Below are positions 1-61,517 of a stretch of DNA of 64,000 nucleotides, one piece after another. The stretch is from Tubulanus polymorphus (lineage: Eukaryota > Nemertea > Palaeonemertea > Tubulaniformes > Tubulanidae), in the NCBI RefSeq assembly GCF_964204645.1, contig NC_134034.1:10225414-10289413 (forward strand), written 5' to 3'. Made by a program: the position numbers and the translations under genes. The notes beneath the pieces are model-generated. The model worked only from the letters and a program-made list of their open reading frames with translations. It was not told where the DNA came from and did not search any database. Within the stretch, counting starts at the first letter, position 1. Each line of letters opens with the position of its first letter.

Positions 1-1719
1 TGGCCGAAGCTGGAGACAATCAACACATATGATTAGCATATAGAATTTAGAATATAGTCTTTAAGGATCATTGTAGGAAATATTTTGCACCTACTTTTTG
101 ACCTTCTGTCCAACTTGCCAGTGCTGAACGGTCGAGATATAAGCGAAATAGCTAATATGAGCAAATATCGGAACGGAAGCTACCAGCACGCCAAAAGCTT
201 CTTTCCTGTCGTGTAAAAAATGAAACTCGTGGTCCAAGGACACGATGCCCACTTGGAAAGTGGTTTCAAACGCTCGAAAATCTAAAAAATTTCAATATTC
301 AACGCCTCCTGGTGACCATATCAAAGAACCAATGACCTTGAAACTCACTACAATTATAGAACATGTCAGCAGCTACAATTTTGCAATTGATTGTGGTAAC
401 AAAATATGCCTCGGTACCAATATAATATAGAAACACTAAGTTATTGTATTATTCAACGCCTCCTGGTGGCCATATACAAAGACTGATGACCCTGAAACTC
501 ACCCCAATCATAAAAACATCATGAGCTACAACTTACCAATTGATTGTGGTAACAAAATATGCTTAGGTATCAATATAATGTGGAAAGACTGTTTTCTACC
601 TACGAATGAGTATTGATGACACTAAGATGGCCACCAATTGCGTGATAACTGGCTGATCAAAAATACCAGTCTCATTTATTACAGATCCCTTTCCAAAGAA
701 TACCCATCACAAATTGCAATAAGAAATGGCAAACCAGTAGGAAGCTACAGGACTCAAAATTCACATTTTTGGGCACTAAAAAGGTCATAGGACGGCCATC
801 TTGAGTCCGATCGACCCAGTTTTTCTTATGCTGATGGGCCCTTGTGGGATTCAAATATGTCCGAAGATCAAGGTAATTGATCAAAGCGTCTTCAGAATTG
901 TCCTAAAAAATTTCAAAAATGTGTCAAAAGTGCTGATTTTGGCGAACAACAACGGCTGCCATTCGGCAATCTTGATTCTGACTGGGCCAGTTTTTTGGCT
1001 GAAGATGTGTCCAGGGTAGATACATGTGTAACCCAAATATCAAGATATTACATTGCAGCGCCGTTGAAACTTCCTTTAAAAAACTGGTGACCGTCTTCGG
1101 ACGAAAAGTGAACGCAATAGCCCGCTGGGACTTAAGTCCCAAGTAAGCTAATTACGACAAAAGCGATCGATGATTCGTACGCAATCGATTATGATCATCT
1201 TCAAAATCGTTAAAAAACGATTTCATATATAGAAATACGATCAATTTCTGAATTGTATTTGGAATTAAGATTCTATCAAAAATTTCACTCGCATTTGCAT
1301 TACTTACCAACAAAAGGCGACGAGAACTATAGGAGATACCCAATAAAATTGCATGTTTGCTGCCAAGAACCACGTCCACCCGCAACACTGGAATCACAGA
1401 ACACAAGCTAACGCCAAATACATATTCATATTCAAAATCGTATTCTGTTTCTTGGTTTGTTATTTGTCTAGCTGGCATTTGTCTGAATGAGGCATTAATA
1501 TTTTTATCTAGTCGCGATTTTTTTTTCTTCAAACGATAACTGAATTGAACCATAGAACTACAATGAGTGTTCGGGAACACCAAGTCCAATTCATCACGAT
1601 CCTTTCGGTGTTAATTTTACTACCCTAAACATATGTGTTTGCCCGATCAAGATTACATGATTACAAGCGGATTTTGGATGTTTCCGTTCGATTTGAGAGC
1701 TCTACGATCTACCATATAC
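1..1719. other. Stretch with no recognised gene
   Basis: This lies downstream (on the minus strand) of the last NRF-6-like exon I can recognise. The rest of that gene's acyltransferase domain should lie here or beyond the window edge, but I could not find its expected C-terminal membrane segments. A minus-strand open frame at 1152-1589 has no family resemblance I can see. The only clear structure is the tandem duplication at 300-595. Confidence 0.5.
300..595. repeat. Tandem duplication, two diverged copies of about 150 bp
   Basis: Both copies begin with AACGCCTCCTGGTG and share the block ATTGATTGTGGTAACAAAAT. They run about 300-452 and 453-595 and differ by scattered substitutions and small indels. 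No coding sense is evident. Confidence 0.75.
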
Positions 1720-6716
<4,997 letters not shown>

Positions 6717-7325: not shown

Positions 7326-7331
7326 AACGCT
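7326..7331. repeat. Target-site duplication AACGCT (left copy)
   Basis: The six bases AACGCT immediately precede the element terminus AGTAATCGGGG and are repeated exactly after the other terminus at 9743-9748. This marks the insertion boundary. Confidence 0.88.
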
Positions 7332-7673
7332 AGTAATCGGGGTAATGGGCTTTCAAGCCAAAGGTCGAACGGTCGAGCTCATAAAAAATGAAAAACATGA
7401 AAATAATAACAATTTCTACTTGAATTAGTCGGGAAACTCATAAAAAATGAAAAATAATTCTCACACACTCGAATTTATTTTTCATTTTTACTCGCTAGAA
7501 AAAAGTGTGAGTAAAGTGTGAGTGAAATAAATTCGAGCGCGCAAGAATTATTTTTCATTTTTTATGAGTTTCACTCCTAATTCAAGTAGAAATTGTTATT
7601 ATTTTCATGCTTTTCATTTTTAATGAACTCGACCATTCAACCTTTAACCTGAAAGCCCATTACCCCTATTACT
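7332..7673. repeat. Inner inverted-repeat unit at the left end of the element
   Basis: 342 bp that begins AGTAATCGGGGTAATGGGC and ends GCCCATTACCCCTATTACT, so the unit is itself palindromic around about 7503. The arms contain TCATAAAAAATGAAAAATAA and a GTGTGAGT repeat near the centre. It recurs as a mirror copy at 9401-9742. Confidence 0.8.
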
Positions 7674-7793
7674 CTTAAAATATTCATATACATGAATAAA
7701 ATATATATGAATAACATATAAATTGATAGATTATTCAATATAAAAGTGTGAGTGAAATAATTCATATTTAAAACAGTGAATATTTATATTTGA

Positions 7794-8443
7794 ATGAGTT
7801 TTAATAAAAGTTTTGTTATAAAAATGAAGAAAGAAGAGAAGAACCCAACTTTAAAATCGAAATCAATGAAACCAATAAATCATTTTCACAGTTTTACATT
7901 AAAAATTATATTTCAGCAACAAATTTAGTGCCCGCAAGACATTATAAAATCGATAACATAACTATGATTAATCAAATATTATCAAATGAAACATATTTAA
8001 TTACTGAACTAGTAGATACTTTTGATAATGGTGTTAAAAATCCTAAAGTATTCAATACAGTTTTAAATTTTAAAGGAACTTTAGATGAAAACATAATTAA
8101 TATTCTTAAAACTCCTTTCAATGAAAGAAATAATGATATAATACTTTCAAAAGATTACAATGATTTGATTAACTTAAGAATTGAAAAAAGACAATTATAT
8201 TATTTCAATTTTGATAATAAACAAATTATCTATAACGAAAATTCATCAAATATTGGCATTCAATGTGAATTAGATAATGAAAAATCATTTAAAGATATTG
8301 CAGTTCAATGTAAATTAGATGATGAATTTAGAAAATTCAATCCTAATGTGAAAGTGCATTGTTATTGCGGAGGTAAATATTTAAAATCACATAAATCAAA
8401 GCAATATGAAGCAATTAAACATAAAAACTGGCGTAAAGAGTAA
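7794..8443 (+). pseudogene. Left-arm copy of the element ORF, frameshifted near its start
   Basis: Same gene as the intact right-arm copy (8630-9280, minus). A one-base deletion in the GAAGAA-rich run near 7833 shifts the frame after about 14 codons; downstream the frame is open to the stop. One further substitution (TTTTCACAG for TTTTTACAG) is seen nearby. The near identity of the arms points to a recent origin or to copying between the arms. The C-terminal motif CYCGG is retained. Confidence 0.75.
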
Positions 8444-8504
8444 CAATTCTACATTATAATTATTGAATTGAGTTAAATGATTTAAATATCTAATAGACTG
8501 TTAC

Positions 8505-8558
8505 AATGATAAATTGTTTGACAGTTGAAATGATAAATTGTTTGACAGTTGAAATGAT
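8505..8558. repeat. Palindrome centre with a short direct repeat
   Basis: ATGATAAATTGTTTGACAGT occurs twice in tandem (about 8507 and 8530). This is the only part of the element that is not palindromic, and may be the scar of a deletion joining two terminal repeats. Confidence 0.6.
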
Positions 8559-8629
8559 ATTTATCATTTTAACAGTCTATTAGATATTTAAATCATTTAA
8601 CTCAATTCAATAATTATAATGTAGAATTG

Positions 8630-9280
8630 TTACTCTTTACGCCAGTTTTTATGTTTAATTGCTTCATATTGCTTTGATTTATGTGATTTTAAATATTTAC
8701 CTCCGCAATAACAATGCACTTTCACATTAGGATTGAATTTTCTAAATTCATCATCTAATTTACATTGAACTGCAATATCTTTAAATGATTTTTCATTATC
8801 TAATTCACATTGAATGCCAATATTTGATGAATTTTCGTTATAGATAATTTGTTTATTATCAAAATTGAAATAATATAATTGTCTTTTTTCAATTCTTAAG
8901 TTAATCAAATCATTGTAATCTTTTGAAAGTATTATATCATTATTTCTTTCATTGAAAGGAGTTTTAAGAATATTAATTATGTTTTCATCTAAAGTTCCTT
9001 TAAAATTTAAAACTGTATTGAATACTTTAGGATTTTTAACACCATTATCAAAAGTATCTACTAGTTCAGTAATTAAATATGTTTCATTTGATAATATTTG
9101 ATTAATCATAGTTATGTTATCGATTTTATAATGTCTTGCGGGCACTAAATTTGTTGCTGAAATATAATTTTTAATGTAAAACTGTAAAAATGATTTATTG
9201 GTTTCATTGATTTCGATTTTAAAGTTGGGTTCTTCTTCTTCTTTCTTCATTTTTATAACAAAACTTTTATTAAAACTCAT
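8630..9280 (-). CDS. Element-encoded 216-residue protein, C-terminal C-x-C-G-G motif
   Basis: Intact ORF of 216 codons on the right arm, reading towards the palindrome centre. Start chosen at the ATG followed by SFNKSFVIKMKKEEEE. It is rich in Asn, Lys and Ile, in keeping with the AT-rich arm and unlike the host genes. Residues near the end read VHCYCGGKYLK...HKSKQ...IKHKNW, a short Cys/His arrangement that could bind zinc; from memory, similar C-x-C-G-G tails occur in proteins of Polinton-like and large DNA viruses. Two internal peptides, IGIQCELDNEKSFKDI and IAVQCKLDDEF, look like a short repeat. Function unknown. The mirror copy in the left arm is frameshifted. Confidence 0.7.
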   Translation of the reverse strand: MSFNKSFVIKMKKEEEEPNFKIEINETNKSFLQFYIKNYISATNLVPARHYKIDNITMINQILSNETYLITELVDTFDNGVKNPKVFNTVLNFKGTLDENIINILKTPFNERNNDIILSKDYNDLINLRIEKRQLYYFNFDNKQIIYNENSSNIGIQCELDNEKSFKDIAVQCKLDDEFRKFNPNVKVHCYCGGKYLKSHKSKQYEAIKHKNWRKE

Positions 9281-9400
9281 TCAAATATAAATATTCACTG
9301 TTTTAAATATGAATTATTTCACTCACACTTTTATATTGAATAATCTATCAATTTATATGTTATTCATATATATTTTATTCATGTATATGAATATTTTAAG

Positions 9401-9742
9401 AGTAATAGGGGTAATGGGCTTTCAGGTTAAAGGTTGAATGGTCGAGTTCATTAAAAATGAAAAGCATGAAAATAATAACAATTTCTACTTGAATTAGGAG
9501 TGAAACTCATAAAAAATGAAAAATAATTCTTGCGCGCTCGAATTTATTTCACTCACACTTTACTCACACTTTTTTCTAGCGAGTAAAAATGAAAAATAAA
9601 TTCGAGTGTGTGAGAATTATTTTTCATTTTTTATGAGTTTCCCGACTAATTCAAGTAGAAATTGTTATTATTTTCATGTTTTTCATTTTTTATGAGCTCG
9701 ACCGTTCGACCTTTGGCTTGAAAGCCCATTACCCCTATTACT
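9401..9742. repeat. Inner inverted-repeat unit at the right end of the element
   Basis: Mirror copy of 7332-7673, beginning AGTAATAGGGGTAATGGGCT and ending ATTACT. The element therefore holds four copies of the terminal sequence. Confidence 0.8.
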
Positions 9743-9748
9743 AACGCT
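9743..9748. repeat. Target-site duplication AACGCT (right copy)
   Basis: Exact match to 7326-7331, directly after the right terminus CCCCTATTACT. Confidence 0.88.
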
Positions 9749-12029: not shown

Positions 12030-14287
12030 ATGAAGTGCAAAACCCGCACTGTAGCCGTCATACCGCCGCTGCTGCTAGTTGCGGGTTTGCTGTGGATGAC
12101 GTTTAGGCACCCCCGACGCCCGCGGCCGGCGCTCAGATGGTGCTCCGACGAAGAGGACCTAAGGGACGCGGCGCTGTTCAAATGGGATCGAAATGGCTGG
12201 AATAGAACTGATACCGATTTGGTAACTGCCGCAGACGTGTCGATCCCCGATATACGCGAGAAGATCGTCTACAAGAACTGCGCGGCGTTTTACGTCGAAG
12301 GAGCTAGTGAAAATATCCTGCCGCTGCTGAGGGAGGCAGAAACGGCCGCGCGGAGACCGCAGCGCTCGACTGAGGAATATTTGAAAATGACTTGCGACTG
12401 TAATGCGTTTAGACGCGATAGGAAGTATATTTTACACCCGCTGACAGAAACTGAACGCCAGTTCCCGATCGCGTTCAGTATACTTATCTACGCAGACCTG
12501 GAACGTTTTGAACGCCTGCTCAGAATGATCTACCGACCTCAGAATTACTATTGCGTGCACGTCGACGCGAAATCGTCTGCCGAGTTCATGGCAGCCGTCA
12601 GAGGTATCAGCGACTGTTTCCCGAACGTGTTTCTATCGCCGGAACGTTACGACGTTGTGTGGGGTAAACTGAGCGTACTGCAGCCGGAAATAAGCTGTAT
12701 GAAACAATTGCTTATAATGGGTAAATCGTGGAAATACTTTATCAATCTCACCGGCCAGGAGGCTCCGCTGAAAACGAATTTTGAACTGGTCAATATTCTG
12801 AAAACGTACAACGGAGCCAACGACGTTGAGAAACTGATATCTAGGTAAACACTTATTCATGAATTGTACGTATCAGAGGCGAATCTTAAATAGAGCGTCT
12901 GATTCGGGGAGGGGTGCACCTTAAAATAGGGCGTATCATAATCATATTAATAGGTTTTATAGTTTTTATATAGTTTTTCAGCTATTTTAAGTTTAATATT
13001 TTCCCTTTCCCCGCGAGATTTCAGGGCAAGTTGACATTACTGGGGGCAAGGTTCGGTACCCCTGCACCCTCCTCATAATTTGAGTTAATGTTCGGAAGGG
13101 CTGACTTAAAGGTATTCCTGTTATCTATAGTTTCTAAGTTTTCTTTTCACAGAAATGCCCCGGAACGTTATGCCGAGCGCATGAAGGAACTACCACTACC
13201 GGAGGGCGTTAGGGTTGTGAAAGGCGCAGTGCACGTGGTCTTGTCGAGGGGATTCGTCGAGTTCACCACGCATGCGCCGGTCGCCAAGTACTTATATAAC
13301 TGGTTCAGCGAGACGGCGATACCGGACGAGTATTTCTTCGCTACATTGAATCATAACCCACAGCTTGGAGCGCCCGGCGCTTACACTGGTGAGTATATCC
13401 ATATTAATTCCGTCTACAGGGGTATTTACAGTTTTGGACCCTGTGTGTTCAAGGTTGGTCTGCGAGCTTGCATGGCTATGACCAACCTTTCAAGATCACC
13501 CTTCTTCGACTATTGCCCTATAGATACATACAGTCATTTTGGAATATGGCGTTGGTAGTTGATTTTCGATTCGAAAGGTGAAGTGCTGAAAACATGTGAA
13601 GTGTGGACGGTCAGTTTTTGAATGTGTGCTGAAAAAATGCCTTATATTTGGTGTTTGTAGTAATTTCGATAAAAAATGTCTCCGTTCGAATCCTGAATAC
13701 GTGTGAAGTGTGAACGATCCAAAATTGGTCAAAATGGTGCTTAAGTCGCCCGGGTCAATCACCAAGTTAAAATCTCTCGTATCGATTCATTTCCTTGTGA
13801 ATTTAGTTGAAATCGGATCGAGAAGGTACCGGTACTCGATTACCAGGCTATAATTTCAATCAAAAAATCCCCGGGGGGACAATCCGAACGATGATAAACT
13901 GTTGAACGTCCGAAGGCGATTGCAGATAGAATAACTATGTCCGGCAAATAAATGTCTCTTAATTTTCCTTCAGGTAAAGTTCACGAGACCGACCCGGTGA
14001 AGTTACCATTTATGGCGAGATTCAAAAACTGGGGAGAATACCCATGCTCTGCGAATTTCTGGTTGAGATGGATATGCATTCTTACAGCCGGTGATCTTCC
14101 GACGCTTTCTCACCGTCCGGAACTGTTCGCCAATAAATTCTTGTGGCATTTTTCGCCGGTCGGATTCGACTGTCTGGAAGAGTTGTATTTCAATCGGACA
14201 CGCGATCAGTGGGCGAAGGGTCTATCGGCTAGCGCGATAGATTTGTCCTACTATAAGTCGTTAGATAACGTGTCCAATCACGTTTAA
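12030..14287 (+). CDS. GCNT-type beta-1,6-N-acetylglucosaminyltransferase (GT14), paralogue A
   Basis: Golgi type II membrane enzyme expected to add beta-1,6-GlcNAc branches to O-glycans from UDP-GlcNAc. Three exons, 12030-12844, 13153-13388 and 13974-14287, joined by GT-AG introns, give 454 residues in one frame. Residues about 10-25 form a single N-terminal signal anchor. The GT14 core follows in order: QFPIAFSILIYAD, MIYRPQNYYCVHVDAKS, CFPNVFLSPERYDVVW, WKYFINLTGQEAPLKTN, then PDEYFFATL (the family's conserved P-D-E segment), then ICILTAGDLP and LFANKF. Length and motif order match GCNT1/GCNT3-like proteins; the exact acceptor specificity cannot be read from sequence. A near-identical paralogue lies 5 kb downstream. 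Intron 2 (585 bp) carries a dispersed repeat related to that at 40690-41020. Confidence 0.93.
13570..13725. repeat. Dispersed repeat in GCNT-A intron 2
   Basis: Contains GAAGTGTGGACGGTCAGTTT, TGTGCTGAAAAAATG and GGTGTTTGTAGT, the same ordered words as the tandem units at 38990-39200 and 40690-41020. The paralogous GCNT-B intron 2 lacks it, so it was gained after the duplication or lost from B. Confidence 0.65.
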
Positions 14288-14778
14288 GGCGGTTTCATCG
14301 ATGGTCCGCTAGGTGGTGTTGCTAGTCGGAATAACTTCCCACCAAACGATGACCAGTGTCATCGGCTATCCCACCAAAGGGGCGTGTTGCAACTAATCAA
14401 AATCTATGTTAATTTGTTATGACGCGTGACTAGGAATTTGGCGAATCAGAGGCGCGTTTGTTTGAAATCGGTTTGTAGAAACTGGTGTATATCGGTTTAT
14501 TGCGTCATAAACCCATTTGCTGTAGTGTGAACAAATGCGACGTTACGAAAAGTCATTTTGAGTCAGCCGACCGCGGAAATCTCCTTATTCGGCCATGTTG
14601 GAAAAGACGGTTAGATGTTACAAACCGCTCGCAAACCGGTTTAGTCGGTTTACGCAAACCGTTTAGGTTGACGCCTAAACGAAGTTTGAGACGCCGGGTT
14701 TATGTAAACCGGTATGGACAAAGTCGATTTTCCTACAAACCTAAACGGTTTGCGCGAACCGATTTCAAACAAATACGC
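14288..14778. other. Downstream flank of GCNT-A
   Basis: Presumed 3' UTR and spacer. From about 14610 it has clustered AAACCGGTTT / AAACCGTTTAGG words and their complements. No gene recognised. Confidence 0.4.
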
Positions 14779-16359
14779 AACATTGTCCACGATTGCTATC
14801 AGTCGACTGCGGAGGAATCCTTAAATGCTACAGCTTGTTTTTGGCAATGACTGTTACGCAGTAAAGAACTTCGTTACAACGTTCTTTGATACAACGATTG
14901 ATCAGTTTTTGCGGACTAAGAAGTATTACATTCCGATTTATTGCGTTAATTATAACGATTTAATTCCATTTAAAATGGAGCTAATAATACAATTTCTACC
15001 ATTGTCTTAACATATTATATTTTGCCAATTAATTTAATTTACATTAATGTAATTGATTTAATAAATTTTATGTTGTACGAATATTTAATGTACTGTCTCA
15101 TTCTCTTGGACACTATGTTTCCAGGCCAGTCTTATCGGTCTCTTAAAAACCGCAATGCACACGGAAAGGATAAACCTTTTGAATTTGTTTGTTTTGCCGT
15201 ATGCATTGGGCGGATACGAGTGTGATGTCTAAGAAATCGCCAAACCCAGGACATGAGCGCCTAAAGTGTGGGTCGAACAGGTTTGGGAAATATCTACACC
15301 TACTTTCATGGTATTTGGAGCGATCTTAAGAGGATAAAAACGTTAATTTCGCTCACTTATGAGTCAGAAAAAATGACAAATTAGGGGTTTTGAAAAAGGA
15401 GTTCGTTTTTACAACCTTACCCCATCGACCTCCCCTCTCTGACACCTACTTCTCTGCCCTCTAGAAAGTCTCTCTTGAGCGCTCTGTTCTCGTCTGAGAG
15501 TAGATGTGACTTGGATCCATTCCCCCACAACCACGGCACCCGTATTTAAATATTGGGGGTGAATAGTAGCTTAGATCATCCAGTATCGCACGTATTATTG
15601 GATACGGTACGTTCCAAGCTACTAATCACCCAAACGTAGTCCCTGTGACCCCCGAAAGACGAGATCACGGCTAGAATCTCGTGCCGGGATTGATGATCGT
15701 CGGTGATGTATGCGGAACATTGCGGACTGCAACTCGGACGCGTTTGTCGCGTATTTTTTATGATCGTTTCTAATTTCCGGTGATCAGACAGGCAGTGAGA
15801 CCGCAGGTGAGTACGCTTATTACGCACGGCAGTAATATATCGATTGACGCCCCTTTCAAATTAGGGTCGCAGATGTATTTTACCTTGTATGACAAATTAA
15901 ATGGTGAAGCTCGTTTTGAAATATCTCCAGCAGATTGAGAATAGTTTTGATATTTACCTACCCGTATTTTGCTGTTTTTATGGGTTTGACTAAAATCCGG
16001 TTATTGGCCTCGGATTTGGAATCGATTTTTTGCGTGAAATTATCGATAATCAGTAGACCCCACGGGATATGTATGATGCCACATTTTCAACCTAATTCCA
16101 GGTCTATTCAAACATAAAATGTCTATATGGCCTTTTAACATTGATTCCCAGTCAAACGGGTGGATTCGTTATTCAGATATATATTATATATTTATAATAA
16201 ATCGGAATGTAATACTTCTTAGTCCGCAAAAACTGATCAATCGTTGTATCAAAGAACGTTGTAACGAAGTTCTTTACTGCGTAACAGTCATTGCCAAAAA
16301 CAAGCTGTAGCATTTAAGGATTCCTCCGCAGTCGACTGATAGCAATCGTGGACAATGTT
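14779..16359. mobile_element. 1.58 kb element with 164 bp terminal inverted repeats
   Basis: 14779-14942 (starting AACATTGTCCACGATTGC) is the exact or near-exact reverse complement of 16196-16359. The 1.25 kb interior has no transposase-like ORF, only short chance frames. No clear target duplication next to the termini (left flank AATACGC, right flank TAATCTT). Probably a non-autonomous DNA transposon or an inverted duplication. Confidence 0.75.
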
Positions 16360-17396
16360 TAATCTTAATTAGTTATAGCGAGTCGACTGAACGTAAGTAG
16401 GCCTAGGTGAAATATATTGATTGATCGATTTTTTTTTAAATATATGAATTTTCATAAAGAAAAGGGGGCCTATATCAATCGGATCAGGCTCTTGTAATCT
16501 GGGATACCATATTTAGCCTACCCCGAATTGGGATACTTTCATCATGCTAGTTTCATCAGCCTGATTCTAAGAGCTCAATGATGCCCTGTCGCCGTATAGA
16601 TTCACTCAGTGGGTGGTCATAATGACCATAAAAAAGAAAAATGAATTGAAAGAAATAGGCTGTTTATCATGTCTGCAGTTATAACAGGCTTGATTTACAC
16701 AGTGATCTCATCAGAGTACCGGGTAGAAGGAAATATGTTGGACTATGTTTTGGTTCGGCGCTGCATATGGACAGGTCGTGTTGACTGAATTGGGTCGAGC
16801 GGGGATCATAGAACTCAAAACATAGAACTCAAATATCAAATTTTTGATTTGAGTTCTGTCTGGATTGACTTTTTGAATCTATACGTGTTTATGCTCTACC
16901 GTTCGCAGGTGGCATCAGACCACAATTAGGTTAGTAGTTCGAAATATGCGTAGGGCCGGACCCCAAAAATAGTACCTAGAGTGAAGAAGAGGTCCCCCAT
17001 AAATGTTGCTATAATTTCTGCAAATGGGATAGGTAACGAATTTCGGTTATATGTATGAAAGCCATTGATCCTGAGAGACAGATCGATGATGAAATAAGGG
17101 ATTCCCTGGACTTTTTTTGCTTGGATTAAGGGTACCACACACGTTGGGGGATTCCCTTAGATATTGTGCTCGGATGTACTGGCATGTCTGTAATGGATAC
17201 CCCTCATTTCTAAAGGTTTGATTATTTCAAAAGTAAGGTTGGGTATGCATGGGGCGAAAACCACTTCAATGCGTAGCTAAGATGCTGGCCGATGAGCCAT
17301 AAGCAGGATTTCGCTTATATATGAACTAAACTCTCGAATTTCTTGTTTTTACTATAGGATATAGACGATTTTGGAATAGTGGTCTGAGCTCAGGTG
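16360..17396. other. Upstream region of GCNT-B
   Basis: No gene recognised. An AG just before the ATG at 17397 (GAGCTCAG) could be the acceptor of a 5' UTR intron, as in paralogue A. Confidence 0.4.
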
Positions 17397-19183
17397 ATGA
17401 AGTACAAAACCCGCTCGGTGGCCGTTGTTCCACTGATGTTGCTAGTTACGGGTTTATGTGTGATATTCATGCGACGCCTGCGGCCGGTGTTCAGACGGTG
17501 CTCCGACGAAGAGTTCCTAAGGGACGCGGCGCTGTTACTCTCGTATTGGGATCGAAACGGCTGGAATAGAACTGGTGGCGAGCTAGTTACTGCCGCAGAC
17601 GTGTCGATCCCTGATATACGCGAGGAGATCGTCTACAAGAACTGCGCGGCGTTTTACGTCGAAGGAGCTAGTGAAAATATCCTGCCGCTGCTGAGGGAGG
17701 CAGAAACGGCCGCGCGGAGACCGCAGCGCTCGGCTGAGAAATATTTGAAAATGACTTGTGATTGCGATGCGTTTAGACGCAAAAGGAAGTATATTTTACA
17801 CCCGCTGACAGAAACTGAACACCAGTTCCCGATCGCGTTCAGTATACTTATCTATGCAGACCTGGAACGTTTTGAACGCCTGCTCAGAATGATCTACCGA
17901 CCTCAGAATTACTATTGCGTGCACGTCGACGCGAAATCGTCTGCCGAGTTCATGGCAGCCGTCACGGGTATTAGCAACTGTTTCCCGAACGTGTTTCTAT
18001 CGCCGGAACGTTACGACGTTGTGTGGGGTGTGAGCGTACTGCAGCCGGAAATAAGCTGTATGAAACAATTGCTTATAATGGGTAAATCGTGGAAATACTT
18101 TATCAATCTCACCGGCCAGGAGGCTCCGCTGAAAACGAATTTTGAACTGGTCAATATTCTGAAAACGTACAACGGAGCCAACGACGTTGAGAAACTGATA
18201 TCTAGGTAAACACTTATTCATGAATTGTACGTATCAGAGGCGAATCTTAAATAGAGCGTCTGATTCGGGGAGGGGTGCACCTTAAAATAGGGCGTATCAT
18301 AATCATATTAATAGGTTTTATAGTTTATATAGTTTTTATATAGTTTTTCAGCTATTTTAAGTTTAATATTTTTCCTTTCCCCGCGAGATTTCAGGGCAAG
18401 TTGACATTACTGGGGGCAAGGTTCGGTACCCCTGCACCCTCCTCATAATTTGAGTTAATGTTCGGAAGGGCTGACTTAAAAGTATTCCTGTTATCTATAG
18501 TTTCAAAGTTTTCTTTTCACAGAAATGCCCCGGAACGTTATGCCGAGCGCATGAAGGAACTCCCACTACCGGAGGGCGTTAGGGTTGTGAAAGGCGCAGT
18601 GCACGTGGTCTTGTCGAGGGGATTCGTCGAGTTCACCACGCATGCGCCGGTCGCCAAGTACTTATATAACTGGTTCAGCGAGAAGGCGTTACCGGACGAG
18701 TATTTTTTCGCTACATTGAGTCATAATCCACAGCTTGGAGCGCCCGGGGCTTACACTGGCAAGTATACAAAAAATACCCTGGCTGGGCTCTCGTCTGGTC
18801 ATAGCTTACATGGTGACCTACGACTTACCGGTTTGCTAACTAACTGCATAATTTTCTCTTCCTCAGGTAAAGTCAACGAGACCGACCCGGTGAAGTTACC
18901 ATTTCTGGCGAGATTGAAATACTGGAAAAATGAAAACCCATGCTCTGCGGGTTTCTGGCGGAAAGAAATATGCATTCTTACGGCCGGAGAGCTGCCGACA
19001 CTTTCTCGCCGTCCGGAACTGTTCGCCAATAAATTCTTCTGGAATTTTTCGCCGGTTGGATTCGACTGTCTGGAAGAGTTGTATTTCAATCGGACACGCG
19101 AACAGTTCGCGAAGGGTCTATCGGCTAGTTCGATCGATTTGTCCTACTATAAGTCGTTAGATTACGTGTCCAATCACGTTTAA
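17397..19183 (+). CDS. GCNT-type beta-1,6-N-acetylglucosaminyltransferase (GT14), paralogue B
   Basis: Same family and architecture as paralogue A. Exons 17397-18205, 18523-18758 and 18867-19183 give 453 residues in frame. I start at the ATG at 17397. Signal anchor at about residues 8-24 (SVAVVPLMLLVTGL). Motifs retained: HVDAKS, NLTGQEAPLK, PDEYFFATL, LFANKF. It lacks one codon after the VVWG segment relative to A. Exon 1 (after the N-terminus), intron 1 and exon 2 are almost identical to A, while the N-terminus, intron 2 and exon 3 differ more, a pattern suggesting gene conversion. The second intron begins GCAAGT instead of GT, and its 108 bp are open in frame, so retention would add 36 residues without a stop. 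Confidence 0.92.
18759..18866 (+). other. Non-canonical GC-AG intron with open reading frame
   Basis: Paralogue A has ACTG|GTGAGTATA at this junction; B has ACTG|GCAAGTATA, a typical GC-AG donor. The acceptor is TTCCTCAG. Splicing restores the family sequence YTGKVNETDPVK. The intron length is a multiple of three and contains no in-frame stop. Confidence 0.8.
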
Positions 19184-19632
19184 GGCGGTTTCATCGATGA
19201 TCCGCTAGGTAGTGTACGGTCGAAAATACATTCCGCAGTCGCCTGTCCCAAACGATAGGCATCGTACTTCACTCGTTGCTGCAATTGCCGAGTGTTTCAG
19301 GATTTAATTGGATCCGTCCGCGTATAGAATCTACTCGTGGCGATATATGTGAATTACCATCTTCCAAATGAATACAAGCGAAAAGATGCAGCGGGACTTT
19401 TTTGACGACTTCTGATATTTCCAATACGAGAATCCGTCCACAATTTCAATGATTTCATAATGGATATAGCGAATTAATCATGAACAGATTTTCCGGTGCC
19501 CTGAAGTTCGTTATAACGAGGTTCCGCTGTATATAGAACTATCGTTTGTAAGGAACTTAATTTTCCGGTTCGTTGTGGCGAGGTTCCACTGCTAAAAGAT
19601 TCAATCGCTATATTAGTGCAAGGTGACGAGCG

Positions 19633-45512: not shown

Positions 45513-48500
45513 ATGACAGCACCCGACGCGGCTCACGGTACGATCACCGTGCGTCTGATTCGATCGTTCGAACACCGAAACATAAAACACGTCATTTATA
45601 AACACATCGATTTCAGTATGACCGCCAAACAGCTGATGAACCACGTCAACCAAGGTGACCAATTGATTTGAAGTTTTTTTTCTTACCTTTACAATCCGTA
45701 CTTCGTTCTACCTCGATTTCCCAAACCTCACTGACTGGCCCAAAGTAAAAGGCCCTAGCCTAAGGCCATGAGAATGGATGTTATTTATTAGATTTGCGTC
45801 CATCGTTTGGGGTTTGCATGAATGAGCGGGCCTCGATAGCTCAGTGAGATAAAGGGTGATGCTGTTACATCCACTGACAGTGCTGAGTGACAAGTGGGTT
45901 CGAGTCCTGCTTGCTGCTTACAATGGACACTTCAAAGGTCGTGATCTCATTGTGAGATTAAATGAACAATCCAATAAGGTTAATGTCTATTTATTAATTG
46001 ATGAGACCTGTTTTTCTGGGATATTTTGCTTACTTTTTGGGGTACATACCTCATTTATGTCTTAACAGAATGCCAAAAATCGCGGACAACAACTGAATAT
46101 CCGATATATTTCCAGTTCTGTACCAATTAGATGGATTGGCAAAAAGACTCCTTAAGTCCAATTGAATGAGAGAGAAAATCCTCCATTTTGTCAAATTTCT
46201 CGAATTTTTACATTGTCACCATGCCTACGAAATGAAGTTATTTTTCTTGTGGGGTCTCAACAACTAAATCAGGGTGGCGTAGGCATGGTAACAATGTTCA
46301 AATCCAAGAAATTTGACAAAATGGAGGATTTTGTCTCTCATTCAACTGGACTTAAGGAGTCTTTTTGCCAATCCATCTAATTGGTACAGAACTGGAAATA
46401 TATCGGATATTCAGTTGTTGTCCGCGATTTTTGGCATTCTGTTAAGACATAAATGAGGTATGTACCCCAAAAAGTAAGCAAAATATCCCAGAAAAACAGG
46501 TCTCATCAATTAATAGATAGACATTAGACAGACCCGTCTGTCGTTTCTAAAGGACCCCCTGTTTTTCAAACTAGCTTTCGTTTCAGGGACTGTGACATAT
46601 TATGGGACCCTCCTGTTTTTCAAAGGGACCTGGCTTGTTAATTTCTTATTGAAAACACTGGTTAGTCTTGGGAAACCAAGTTCCAAGCGATGTAAAGCCA
46701 AACAAACCCACTAAAAAATTTGATTTTATGTCGAAATTTTCATTATGACGTTTTGTATATTTTTCAGATATACAGCATCGTCCTGGCCTGCCGCCGCCTA
46801 TCCGAAAATTTCAGTACGGTAAGCCTTGACTCTCCTATCCTTATCTCTTACGAAGACTTTCTCTTATTATCCTGAAGTCGAAATTAGAATGAAATCTCTT
46901 CAAATAATCAAATTGTAACTGACCGCGGGGAACTGTGGTGCTCTGGATCCAGTCTCACAGGTACAGATTAATTTAATCCGTGCTGTTTGAATAAAACTCT
47001 GTGAAATACCAGTTCAATTCCTTCGAGATTTTCATTTAAAAAGAGTCGACTTTTCGTATCAATTTTTTAGGAAATCTATACCTTTTACTTAGTGAGAGAG
47101 CTAATCTTTTATCAATATGATGACTCATTTGATCATTTTCGGATTTGAAAGCCTAAAAAAATCAAGCTCAAATTTCATCGAAAATGAACCAATTTTCAAT
47201 ACGAATGACCTGGGATGGGTTTCAGAGATGTGGAAGAAAAATATTCCCTGGGAACATTTTGAAATTTGTTATAACCATGGTTTCTCATTGGTGGTTGTCA
47301 TCCAGATTGAGGATTTACCTCTAGGGATAACGTTGATACTCAGGCTATGAAACCGGGCCCAGGTGTTTTCTGGCGCCATCTGGTGATTATCGTCGGTACC
47401 CCGTGAAATAAGGATTTAGGAATTAAAAACTTTTTCGTAGACTCTTGGTTCAGAAATTCAGTTGAATCTGGTTTTTTTTTCAGATACGATGAAGATTCAA
47501 CATAAAGCTCATGGCGCGAAGGTAAAATAAACTTCGCGAAATTTGTGAAAAATACCCCAAAAAAAAAACCGGTCATTGGTGTGATTGGAGTGAGAATCTA
47601 GTTAGAATACTGGGCCCGGTTTTATAGACCAGTATAACCTTTAGCCTGGGGGCTAACTGAATTGAAAATTAATTAAGTTAGCCGCCGGGTTAAAGGTAGT
47701 ACCAGTCTATAAACCTGCCCCAGGGTTCTTACAGATGAGGGGCCGTTGCAGTTGGTCAAAAGTTGGTTACAGTTAATCGGCCGATAAATTCCATAGAATG
47801 AACTATTAATTTCCACTATGTCGACTATCTGCTGGTTAACCGTGACCAACTTTTCAGCAATAACTGGCTCCAGGGATTTCGAAAAATTCCCGAGTAGTTG
47901 TCATAGTTAGGATGATCAGACTTGAAACTTACCCAAATTACAACTTACGCTTAGTAAATTCAATTAGAAACACGGGACTCAAAATAGTGTCGACTTACGA
48001 AAAATCATTTTCTTTTATTACAGTCAAACGACCCGGTCATCAACACGGAAAATGACGAATGTTTGATGTTGAAACCGGGCAAAACCTTGTCTGAAAATGG
48101 TGTCGGTAAGTTCTTAAAGTCGTTTCCTTGGGAGATTGTCCGTCATCTTTCATGAGAGATAATAACTATTTACAGGGTCCCTACGGCTCCTTGATTCCTT
48201 TAAAACTCCTAAACCAAAAATATTTTTCAAGGCCATTGAATATCCTTGAATTTTAGCAAAATGCCCAAACGACCTTGAAAACTCCTTGAACTTTGAGAAA
48301 TTGGCTATTAGGAAATTATTAGGTTTTAGGTCTTGTTATTATACCCACAGATTCCACCTAAATCAAATGGTTTACTAAGATAAACAGTACTGATTTAGGA
48401 GATGTCTACAGTTAGTATATGAAAGTGATGCCGACACTCTCCTCGAAATTTGAAATTTTCTCCTTGAAAACTCCTTGAATTCTGGAATGACTGATCTGTA

Positions 48501-60066: not shown

Positions 60067-61517
60067 CTAGAAGTCCCGCTTCATCGATTCTAGTGAAGGG
60101 CATATCCTGACAGGGGGCGCCTTGGATTCCATGCGCATATACTTCGAATCTAACTCGAGTTTTTGCGGATCGATATTTTCAGCCCCGCGCTCGCGTATAC
60201 CGACCGTTTCGACGGCCATCAATCGTCTCATATCCGTCGCCGAACGAGTCATTGATTCGTTCTTATTTGCGATATCGCTGAAATATTCGAAGTTACGTTC
60301 GAACTCGGCGATCGGTAAAATGGCGAACGACTGGGCCACGTAGTCGATTTCGCGTTTTTGAATGAACATCAACTCGTAGTAGGCCGTTTTAATCGATACT
60401 TTGCCGTCTGCGCGCTTTTCCAAAACCAGATTCAAAATGGCCGATCCCCTGAGGGCTAGAATTTTGAAATATTTCATATCGGCTAAGAAATTACCCAATG
60501 AATACACGACCAAGGAGTCGTCCTTTTTATCCCAAACCATCGGTTGTAGCACGTGAGGGTGAGACCCGATCACTATATTCACGCCGAGTTCTTTGAAGAA
60601 TTTAAACCACAATTTTTGCCGATAGTAATCGGGGTGTTCTTGGAATTCTTTACCCCAATGCACGAAGGCGATGATCTGGTCGACGTTCATGTTTTTAGCG
60701 CGTTCCACCTCGCGACGAATAGTCGTTTCTTCGAGATAGTTCATTTCGGTCGGCGGTTCCATATCGCGTTCTGACGGCGTGTGTCTGGTGAACGCCAGCA
60801 GCGCGATACGGAACCCGTCCTTCTCGAGTATTAACGGTGAGAGTCTCCGACGCGCGTCACCGTCGACGAACGCTCCCGTGTGTCTGATGCCGAATTCGTC
60901 TAGAGTTTCGCTCGTTTTGACGATACCCGCTTTTCCGATATCGTTTGCGTGATTGTTGGCCGTAACCAGAACGTCAAATCCGGCGTTACGTAAAGCTTCG
61001 ACGAACGCAGGTGGTACGACTATCGTAAAATGGCCGTTCGCCCAGTCCGCATCCGGAGAAGAACCGACTGAACATTCAAGATTGCCGATCGCAAAATCCA
61101 CGCCTGATAATCTTGACTTTATAAACCTTTAGATAAAGATAAACAAGATTAGTAAATCTTTGGATCTTCTGAAGTTCAATTCTAACAGAAGAAAGGCGAA
61201 TTTAAATTTGAATTTGAATCTAACTGATGTAACCGAAACTTTCAGTTACGTCCGTTTGATTTGAATTCGAAAGGCTACCTGAATATTGGGTTGTAATCGT
61301 AAGTTTGAGTTTCTTCGTCGTAGGCCGTGCGCGTTATGTCCCTGTGCGCCATGATGTCACCGGCAAAAAGCAACGAAATCGTCTTCGGCGGTGTTCGGGT
61401 GTCATCGGAAACGTTCGTCGGAAATCTGACGCGATGAACGAAGTAACAGCAGGTTAATACGAACACCGTAGTCACCACGAACCATTCCTGATAGGGAAAT
61501 GTCCTGAAATTATCCAT
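60067..61517 (-). CDS. CapA-like (PGA_cap / metallophosphatase fold) membrane-anchored protein
   Basis: Homologue of bacterial CapA, which takes part in poly-gamma-glutamate capsule formation; role in animals unknown. Two minus-strand exons, 61517-61279 and 61126-60067, join to 1,299 nt (432 residues). I place the second acceptor at TATCTAAAG (61127) because that keeps frame and supplies FIKSRLSG before VDFAIGNLE; the nearer AG at 61104 breaks the frame. One N-terminal membrane anchor at about residues 12-27 (WFVVTTVFVLTCCYFV). Metallophosphatase-type motifs in order: LLFAGDIMAHRD (Asp54), GNLE (94-97), TANNHANDIG (His about 139), VHWGKE (His about 235), GSHPHVLQP (266-270). The active-site set looks complete. 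The gene has an intron and host-like composition, so it is resident, not contamination. A 69 bp minisatellite begins about 30 bp upstream of the ATG. Confidence 0.9.

Follow-up and report, generated by a model that had tools for sequence, protein, structure and literature searches.

What kind of element leaves behind a chromosomal insertion of 2.4 kb that is almost entirely its own reverse complement? The locus lies within a stretch of 64,000 nucleotides (hereafter the window), which corresponds to C10:10225414-10289413 of a 268-Mb genome of 77 contigs. An earlier note, made from the letters alone, had read it as two Polinton-like terminal repeats joined head to head after the unique interior was lost. 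Our analysis instead favors, with a probability of about 0.7, a centre-deleted copy of a non-autonomous palindromic family that lives off Polintons of the same genome. The features of this copy are collected in Table 1.

Table 1 Architecture of the palindromic insertion, given in window positions.
Feature	Position	Strand	Remark
Left target-site duplication AACGCT	7326-7331		
Left arm	7332-8514	+	
Foldback at the outer end of the left arm (AGTAAT...ATTACT)	7332-7673		
ORF1, left copy, N-terminus out of frame	7832-8443	+	one A missing at ~7836
Remnant of the 24-bp tandem array, 2.3 units, palindrome centre	8505-8559		spans the 44-nt spacer 8515-8558
Right arm	8559-9742	-	
ORF1, right copy, intact, 216 aa	8630-9280	-	
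Foldback at the outer end of the right arm	9401-9742		
Right target-site duplication AACGCT	9743-9748		

The near-perfect palindrome with AG...CT ends and the same hexamer on both sides, as described earlier, was borne out by our alignment. The arms are inverted copies of each other on either side of the short spacer and differ at four places, i.e., three substitutions and one indel over 1183 positions of the gapped alignment. The termini of the element read AGTAATCGGGG...CCCCTATTACT. A chance origin of the palindrome is excluded, since the longest exact inverted match in ten mononucleotide shuffles of the surrounding 7 kb was 14 nt. Each arm ends on its outer side in a foldback of ~342 bp that is ~84% self-complementary. 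The earlier note had also placed a gene within the terminal repeat, and ORF1 indeed sits in the arm; of the two inward-pointing frames that it had listed, the right one is intact, whereas the left one is frameshifted at its N-terminus. ORF1 is the only ORF that reaches 100 aa within 7326-9748, and no polymerase or integrase match was found in this interval. Genes for a packaging ATPase, a protease or a capsid protein were likewise absent from it, as judged by ORFs of at least 100 aa and by the DNA of a complete Polinton from the same genome (L041/L042, see below). No empty site for the insertion was present inside the window, where the flank matches amounted to one neighboring repeat piece covering 82 nt of the left flank, and Rfam and tRNA scans of the window gave no match.

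Searching the genome with one arm, as the earlier note had advised, uncovered a multi-copy family with at least 96 matches (40 of 1952 candidates scored). A 39-mer inside ORF1 was found at up to three mismatches 95 times in forward and 79 times in reverse orientation (174 in all; reversed-pattern control 0). The terminal 24-mer AGTAATMGGGGTAATGGGCTTTCA occurs 885 + 878 times genome-wide at the same tolerance (reversed-pattern control 0 + 0), a count in which foldback ends score twice. At arm loci, 20 longer stretches were read. Among the 13 two-ended copies with flanks read, the window copy included, 12 are bordered by 6-bp duplications that match perfectly; in the remaining copy, L026, the left end is eroded. 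The mobility suspected earlier is thereby supported, and so is the duplication length of 6 bp given in the earlier note. One copy (L036) is inserted in a Polinton gene, and its flanks align to adjacent positions of L041, an uninterrupted copy of that gene, with 6 bp between them; these 6 bp agree with the duplication in length, but the six bases themselves are not identical in L041.

The proposed link to Polintons is supported by a full-length Polinton-type element of the same genome (C1:14237008-14255995, ~19.0 kb), which we read as two pieces, L041 and L042, and which carries the termini of the family and a 6-bp duplication, TACAGT. Vertebrate Mavericks are characterized in two reports by inverted repeats, 6-bp duplications, AG-type ends and a length of ~17 kb (PMC8097293, PMC6431247). 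The termini and duplications of the window copy therefore fit Polintons, in agreement with the earlier note. The ~19-kb element encodes an integrase (PF00665, E 8e-9, above cut-off) that also has a sub-threshold chromodomain match, an A32-type packaging ATPase (Pox_A32, PF04665, 3.6e-11, above cut-off), a frame of 1356 aa and further, unassigned ORFs. The 1356-aa frame, located in L042, has an endonuclease VII match that narrowly misses the cut-off (23.4 versus 23.6 bits) and contains the motifs K...N..YG and YFDTDS, which we take to be family-B polymerase motifs. Pfam DNA_pol_B_2 was not found in this polymerase-like ORF, and searches of PDB and PHROGs returned no polymerase. A second Polinton lineage of the same genome has a locus with a PF03175 match, and the N-terminus of its ORF resembles the start of the L042 ORF at 72% over 344 DNA columns; the putative link of the L042 ORF to family B comes from this partial DNA similarity. 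The earlier note had called for full-length elements with the same termini around a protein-primed polymerase and an integrase: the integrase is there, but the polymerase is represented by a polymerase-like ORF lacking the Pfam match.

All 113 scored integrase copies of the L041/L042 type are at least 95% identical, and for 31 of 35 copies of the polymerase-like ORF an integrase gene in facing orientation lies no more than 13 kb away (among the matches listed), which makes this Polinton family a large and recent one. The palindromic element shares the cis ends of a complete Polinton and lacks its enzymes. Similarity between the window arms and L041/L042 is confined to a terminal stretch of ~76 nt and a more internal one of 107 nt (83-87% identity); another copy, the two ends of which are L043 and L044, agrees with the L041 tip in all of its 46 outermost nucleotides at either end. 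Foldbacks also form the ends of the full-length Polinton (L041 109-514 and L042 9191-9596, ~406 bp, 76% self-complementary), as in the palindromic family.

To which plan, then, is the family built? Fuller copies are arranged as TIR-ORF1-24-bp array-ORF2-ORF3-centre, followed by the mirror image. The array comprises 2 to 109 near-matching units (blocks counted), ORF2 encodes ~77 aa and ORF3 ~100 aa, for which a C2H2 match stayed under the cut-off, and the arrays of one copy stand in opposite orientation. A self-palindrome of 3.68 kb (98.6%) is present in L034, the left arm of which differs past ORF2, and another of 3.1 kb (94.2%) in L040. For the pairing of genes we used the best 150 of 162 ORF1 matches and the 150 ORF3 matches listed. 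Where neighboring ORF1 copies lie no more than 9 kb apart, they are in facing orientation in all 29 cases, with none on the same strand and none back to back (best 150 of 162), and the same holds for 15 of 15 neighboring ORF3 pairs with a distance of up to 3.5 kb (among the 150 matches listed). Beyond the 9-kb limit, one in-line ORF1 pair was noted (C5:8645840 and 8659154, both plus, 12.7 kb apart). Two ORF3 copies that face each other are enclosed by eight of the 29 facing ORF1 pairs; 11 further pairs contain one ORF3, and the other 10 show none among the matches listed. As fuller members carry ORF1, array, ORF2 and ORF3 in mirrored form, the palindrome is the family's own body plan. Across the facing pairs, ORF1 identity to the window protein ranges from 79 to 100% (among the matches listed), so the plan is either older than the subfamily of the window copy or arose more than once. 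At the centre of the window palindrome, array units are joined in opposite orientation, and the 193 bp that separate its two ORF1 copies are the smallest gap of the 29 facing pairs (among the matches listed). The meeting of oppositely oriented array units suggests that the window copy lost its centre secondarily and that the deletion lay inside the arrays.

Two loci show further arrangements. In L034, a 758-aa ORF (1463-3736) without a Pfam or confident PDB match has on one side a Polinton-type end, 97% identical to L042, and on the other ORF2-ORF3 of a palindromic element; it is possibly cargo or an alternative end gene. L038 contains a related degenerate unit (3356-4846) with diverged ORF1, ORF2 and ORF3, and a short ORF that resembles the N-terminus of the Polinton polymerase-like ORF precedes the diverged ORF1.

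The likeness of the arms may bear on how the palindrome is kept up. At each of the four places where the window arms differ, the changed arm stands alone, and its mate matches every base present among 29 other arms. With all four differences private to one arm, the arms were identical at insertion by this reckoning; the loss of the A in the left ORF1, private to the left arm, likewise postdates insertion. The nearest other sampled arm differs from the window arms by 2.4%. In seven of ten two-armed copies the mates are closest to each other among the sampled arms, a comparison that in four of the ten covers only part of one arm. In L025, L026 and L031, at least one arm is nearer to an arm of another element than to its mate, and since three of ten copies break the pattern, the homogenization of arms is imperfect. 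Identical ORF1 bit scores within a pair were obtained for 6 of the 29 facing pairs (among the matches listed). Judged from these alignments, the likeness would fit a mode of replication in which one arm is copied from its mate, without perfect regularity.

ORF1 is under purifying selection, with a pN/pS of 0.316 (codon bootstrap 0.209-0.482) over 19 elements and 198 aligned codons; one full-length ORF1 was taken per element, and the 171 resulting pairs are non-independent. An unfiltered set, in which frames that are broken or chimaeric were retained, yielded a value of 0.487. The ORF1 product is of use to the element or to its source. Its C-terminus carries a CxCGG...H tail that looks zinc-finger-like by eye. 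The only Pfam match was Carbam_trans_C (E 0.092, below cut-off), none being to a transposase, and PHROGs returned a carbamoyltransferase family (E 0.0025, 18.6 bits). Both weak hits agree on the enzyme family and cover residues ~15-93, but we regard a kinship as unproven. No relatives were found in PDB; among viral contigs, the single sequence found none and an alignment-derived pattern gave 600 hits, of which 0 were confirmed. A structure model from the single sequence was unusable (mean pLDDT 37).

How might an element without enzymes of its own for these steps multiply? Most likely, replication and integration are carried out by Polinton enzymes acting at the Polinton-type ends. The protein-primed polymerase of the Polinton would start at the AGTAAT terminus. 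Owing to the complementarity of its two halves, the displaced strand would fold into a hairpin of half the genome. Copying from the terminus round the loop would then restore the full palindrome and render the arms identical in each cycle, and the Polinton integrase would insert the product with a 6-bp duplication. The length of array and centre varies between copies; the centre, presumably unstable with its 24-bp arrays in opposite orientation, may shrink in individual copies. Taken further, the family might constitute a long-lived lineage of palindromic transposons with ORF1-3 of its own and the selected ORF1 in both arms, replicated by helper Polintons as a half-genome hairpin that is copied round its loop. 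This wider proposal is tentative, and we would not yet give it even odds. If true, it would describe a chromosomal, integrating satellite of a virus-like transposon, the read-through transcripts of which would be long perfect hairpins able to feed small-RNA silencing of the host.

The ORF1-ORF2-ORF3 block could, alternatively, be the end of an autonomous Polinton lineage with very long TIRs, the palindromes being recurrent interior-deletion derivatives rather than a separate lineage. We consider this rather unlikely, although its odds and those of the preferred reading are not exclusive, as both have the element depend on Polintons. Two chimaeric loci speak for it. On C6, 614 unread bases separate an ORF1 that is 93% identical to the window protein (15639514-15640131, minus) from a 24-bp array, which runs into Polinton genes for an HNH protein, a 200-aa and a 124-aa protein and an integrase; the DNA of these genes is 89-96% identical to L041, the outer and far ends of the element being unread. 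At L021, an ORF1-array-ORF2-ORF3 block adjoins Polinton genes that are 96% identical to L042. Either arms and Polinton ends were exchanged at these loci, or a Polinton lineage owns the ORF1-3 block. However, no second ORF1 appears at the expected far end on C6 (best 150 of 162), the palindromic plan holds over the whole span of ORF1 identity in the 29 facing pairs (79-100%, among the matches listed), and two candidates for a long element bounded by ORF1 on either side did not hold up. One of these, C1:14063817-14085649, was considered as an autonomous Polinton whose repeats contain ORF1, but its junctions show a Polinton nested in a palindrome. The nested Polinton measures 16.6 kb (~C1:14065097-14081682) and has its own ends and the duplication AAAGCG; it sits in ORF1 of a host palindrome of ~5.2 kb with the outer duplication TGCGGA. 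The other, C5:11848118/11867808, was rejected as a single 20-kb element, the pieces near the presumed ends and inside not matching.

A single deletion that removed the unique Polinton interior, so that two TIRs came to lie head to head, as first proposed, describes the window copy alone quite well, with its two 1183-nt arms and 44-nt spacer. It becomes improbable once the family is considered: the window arms and the Polinton ends have only short stretches in common, ORF2 and ORF3 lie in both arms elsewhere (8 of 29 facing pairs as judged by ORF3, among the matches listed), and the arrays of other members lie in opposite orientation. What looks like a joined pair of terminal repeats in the window is, in fuller copies, a mirrored ORF1-array-ORF2-ORF3; loss of the interior probably was the last step for the window copy, but is largely refuted as the origin of the family. 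An independent transposon family with ORF1 as its own transposase, and with Polinton-like ends acquired by convergence or capture, could account for a conserved and selected gene without a confident relative in Pfam, PHROGs, PDB or viral contigs. Yet the 46 terminal nucleotides that both ends of one copy (L043, L044) have in common with the L041 tip, a duplication as long as that of the Polinton and the lack of a transposase match of ORF1 in Pfam render this very improbable. Near-perfect palindromes are a known assembly hazard, and the structure is known here from the assembly alone, so one arm might have been duplicated in inverted orientation by mistake. Such an artefact is scarcely credible given that each arm has private differences, that a matching duplication flanks the pair, and that many loci follow the same plan with differing lengths, centres and duplications.

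The preferred reading, a centre-deleted member of a Polinton-dependent palindromic family, can be compared to known systems. With Polintons/Mavericks, self-synthesizing elements of the adintovirus type, the window element has AG...CT termini, inverted repeats and 6-bp duplications in common, as described for the former in one report (PMC8097293). It differs from them by the absence of polymerase, integrase and ATPase genes, by its size of 2.4 kb compared to ~17-19 kb and by being almost wholly palindromic. MITEs and other non-autonomous TIR elements are short, numerous and moved in trans. The same would apply to the palindromic family, but MITEs are non-coding, whereas this family bears a selected gene and is palindromic over its whole body rather than at its ends alone. 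Foldback-type elements have long inverted repeats, internal tandem arrays and variable middles, all of which are also seen in the palindromic family; its ends, duplication length and neighbors are, however, of the Polinton type. Palindromic defective adenovirus genomes consist of two complementary halves and depend on a helper. Complementary halves are found here as well, as they are in self-complementary or hairpin-replicating AAV, and dependence on a helper would be a further likeness to both, but the palindromic family is integrated and has its own genes. Virophages and transpovirons are small partners of a larger virus-like element. The palindromic family would be such a partner too, with the difference that no capsid gene was found, that the partner is a chromosomal Polinton and that the dependence is deduced.

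Non-autonomous relatives of transposons are ordinary, and Polintons are regarded as virus-like; dependents of Polintons are, as far as we have seen, little described. A palindromic non-autonomous Polinton family with a selected gene was not among the open-access titles and abstract openings listed, which lie outside repeat databases and subscription journals. Short-read assemblies probably collapse such elements. With its conserved gene, its mirror-image genome and more than 100 near-identical integrase copies alongside, such a family would offer a system for studying how protein-primed elements acquire satellites. It would likewise be a natural system for the homogenization of terminal repeats and for the tolerance of hosts towards kilobase palindromes.

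The window holds several other features. A second foldback (45981-46526) lacks AGTAAT tips and consists of 249-nt arms, 97% complementary, around a 48-nt spacer, its tips reading TAATGTCT...AGACATTA. A Core-2/I-branching-enzyme gene is present as a tandem duplicate (12030-14319 and 17394-19215) at a spacing of mostly ~5.36 kb, with stretches that are 90-100% identical; genes of this type point to a probable animal host. Between the duplicates, perfectly complementary inverted repeats of 164 nt lie 1253 nt apart (14779-16359), possibly a small TIR transposon. Furthermore, the window contains an unbroken (AT)147 run (3650-3944) and, on the minus strand, a gene for a PGA_cap protein of the bacterial capsule synthesis type (60067-61101, E 1.4e-51), although the genome is eukaryote-like.
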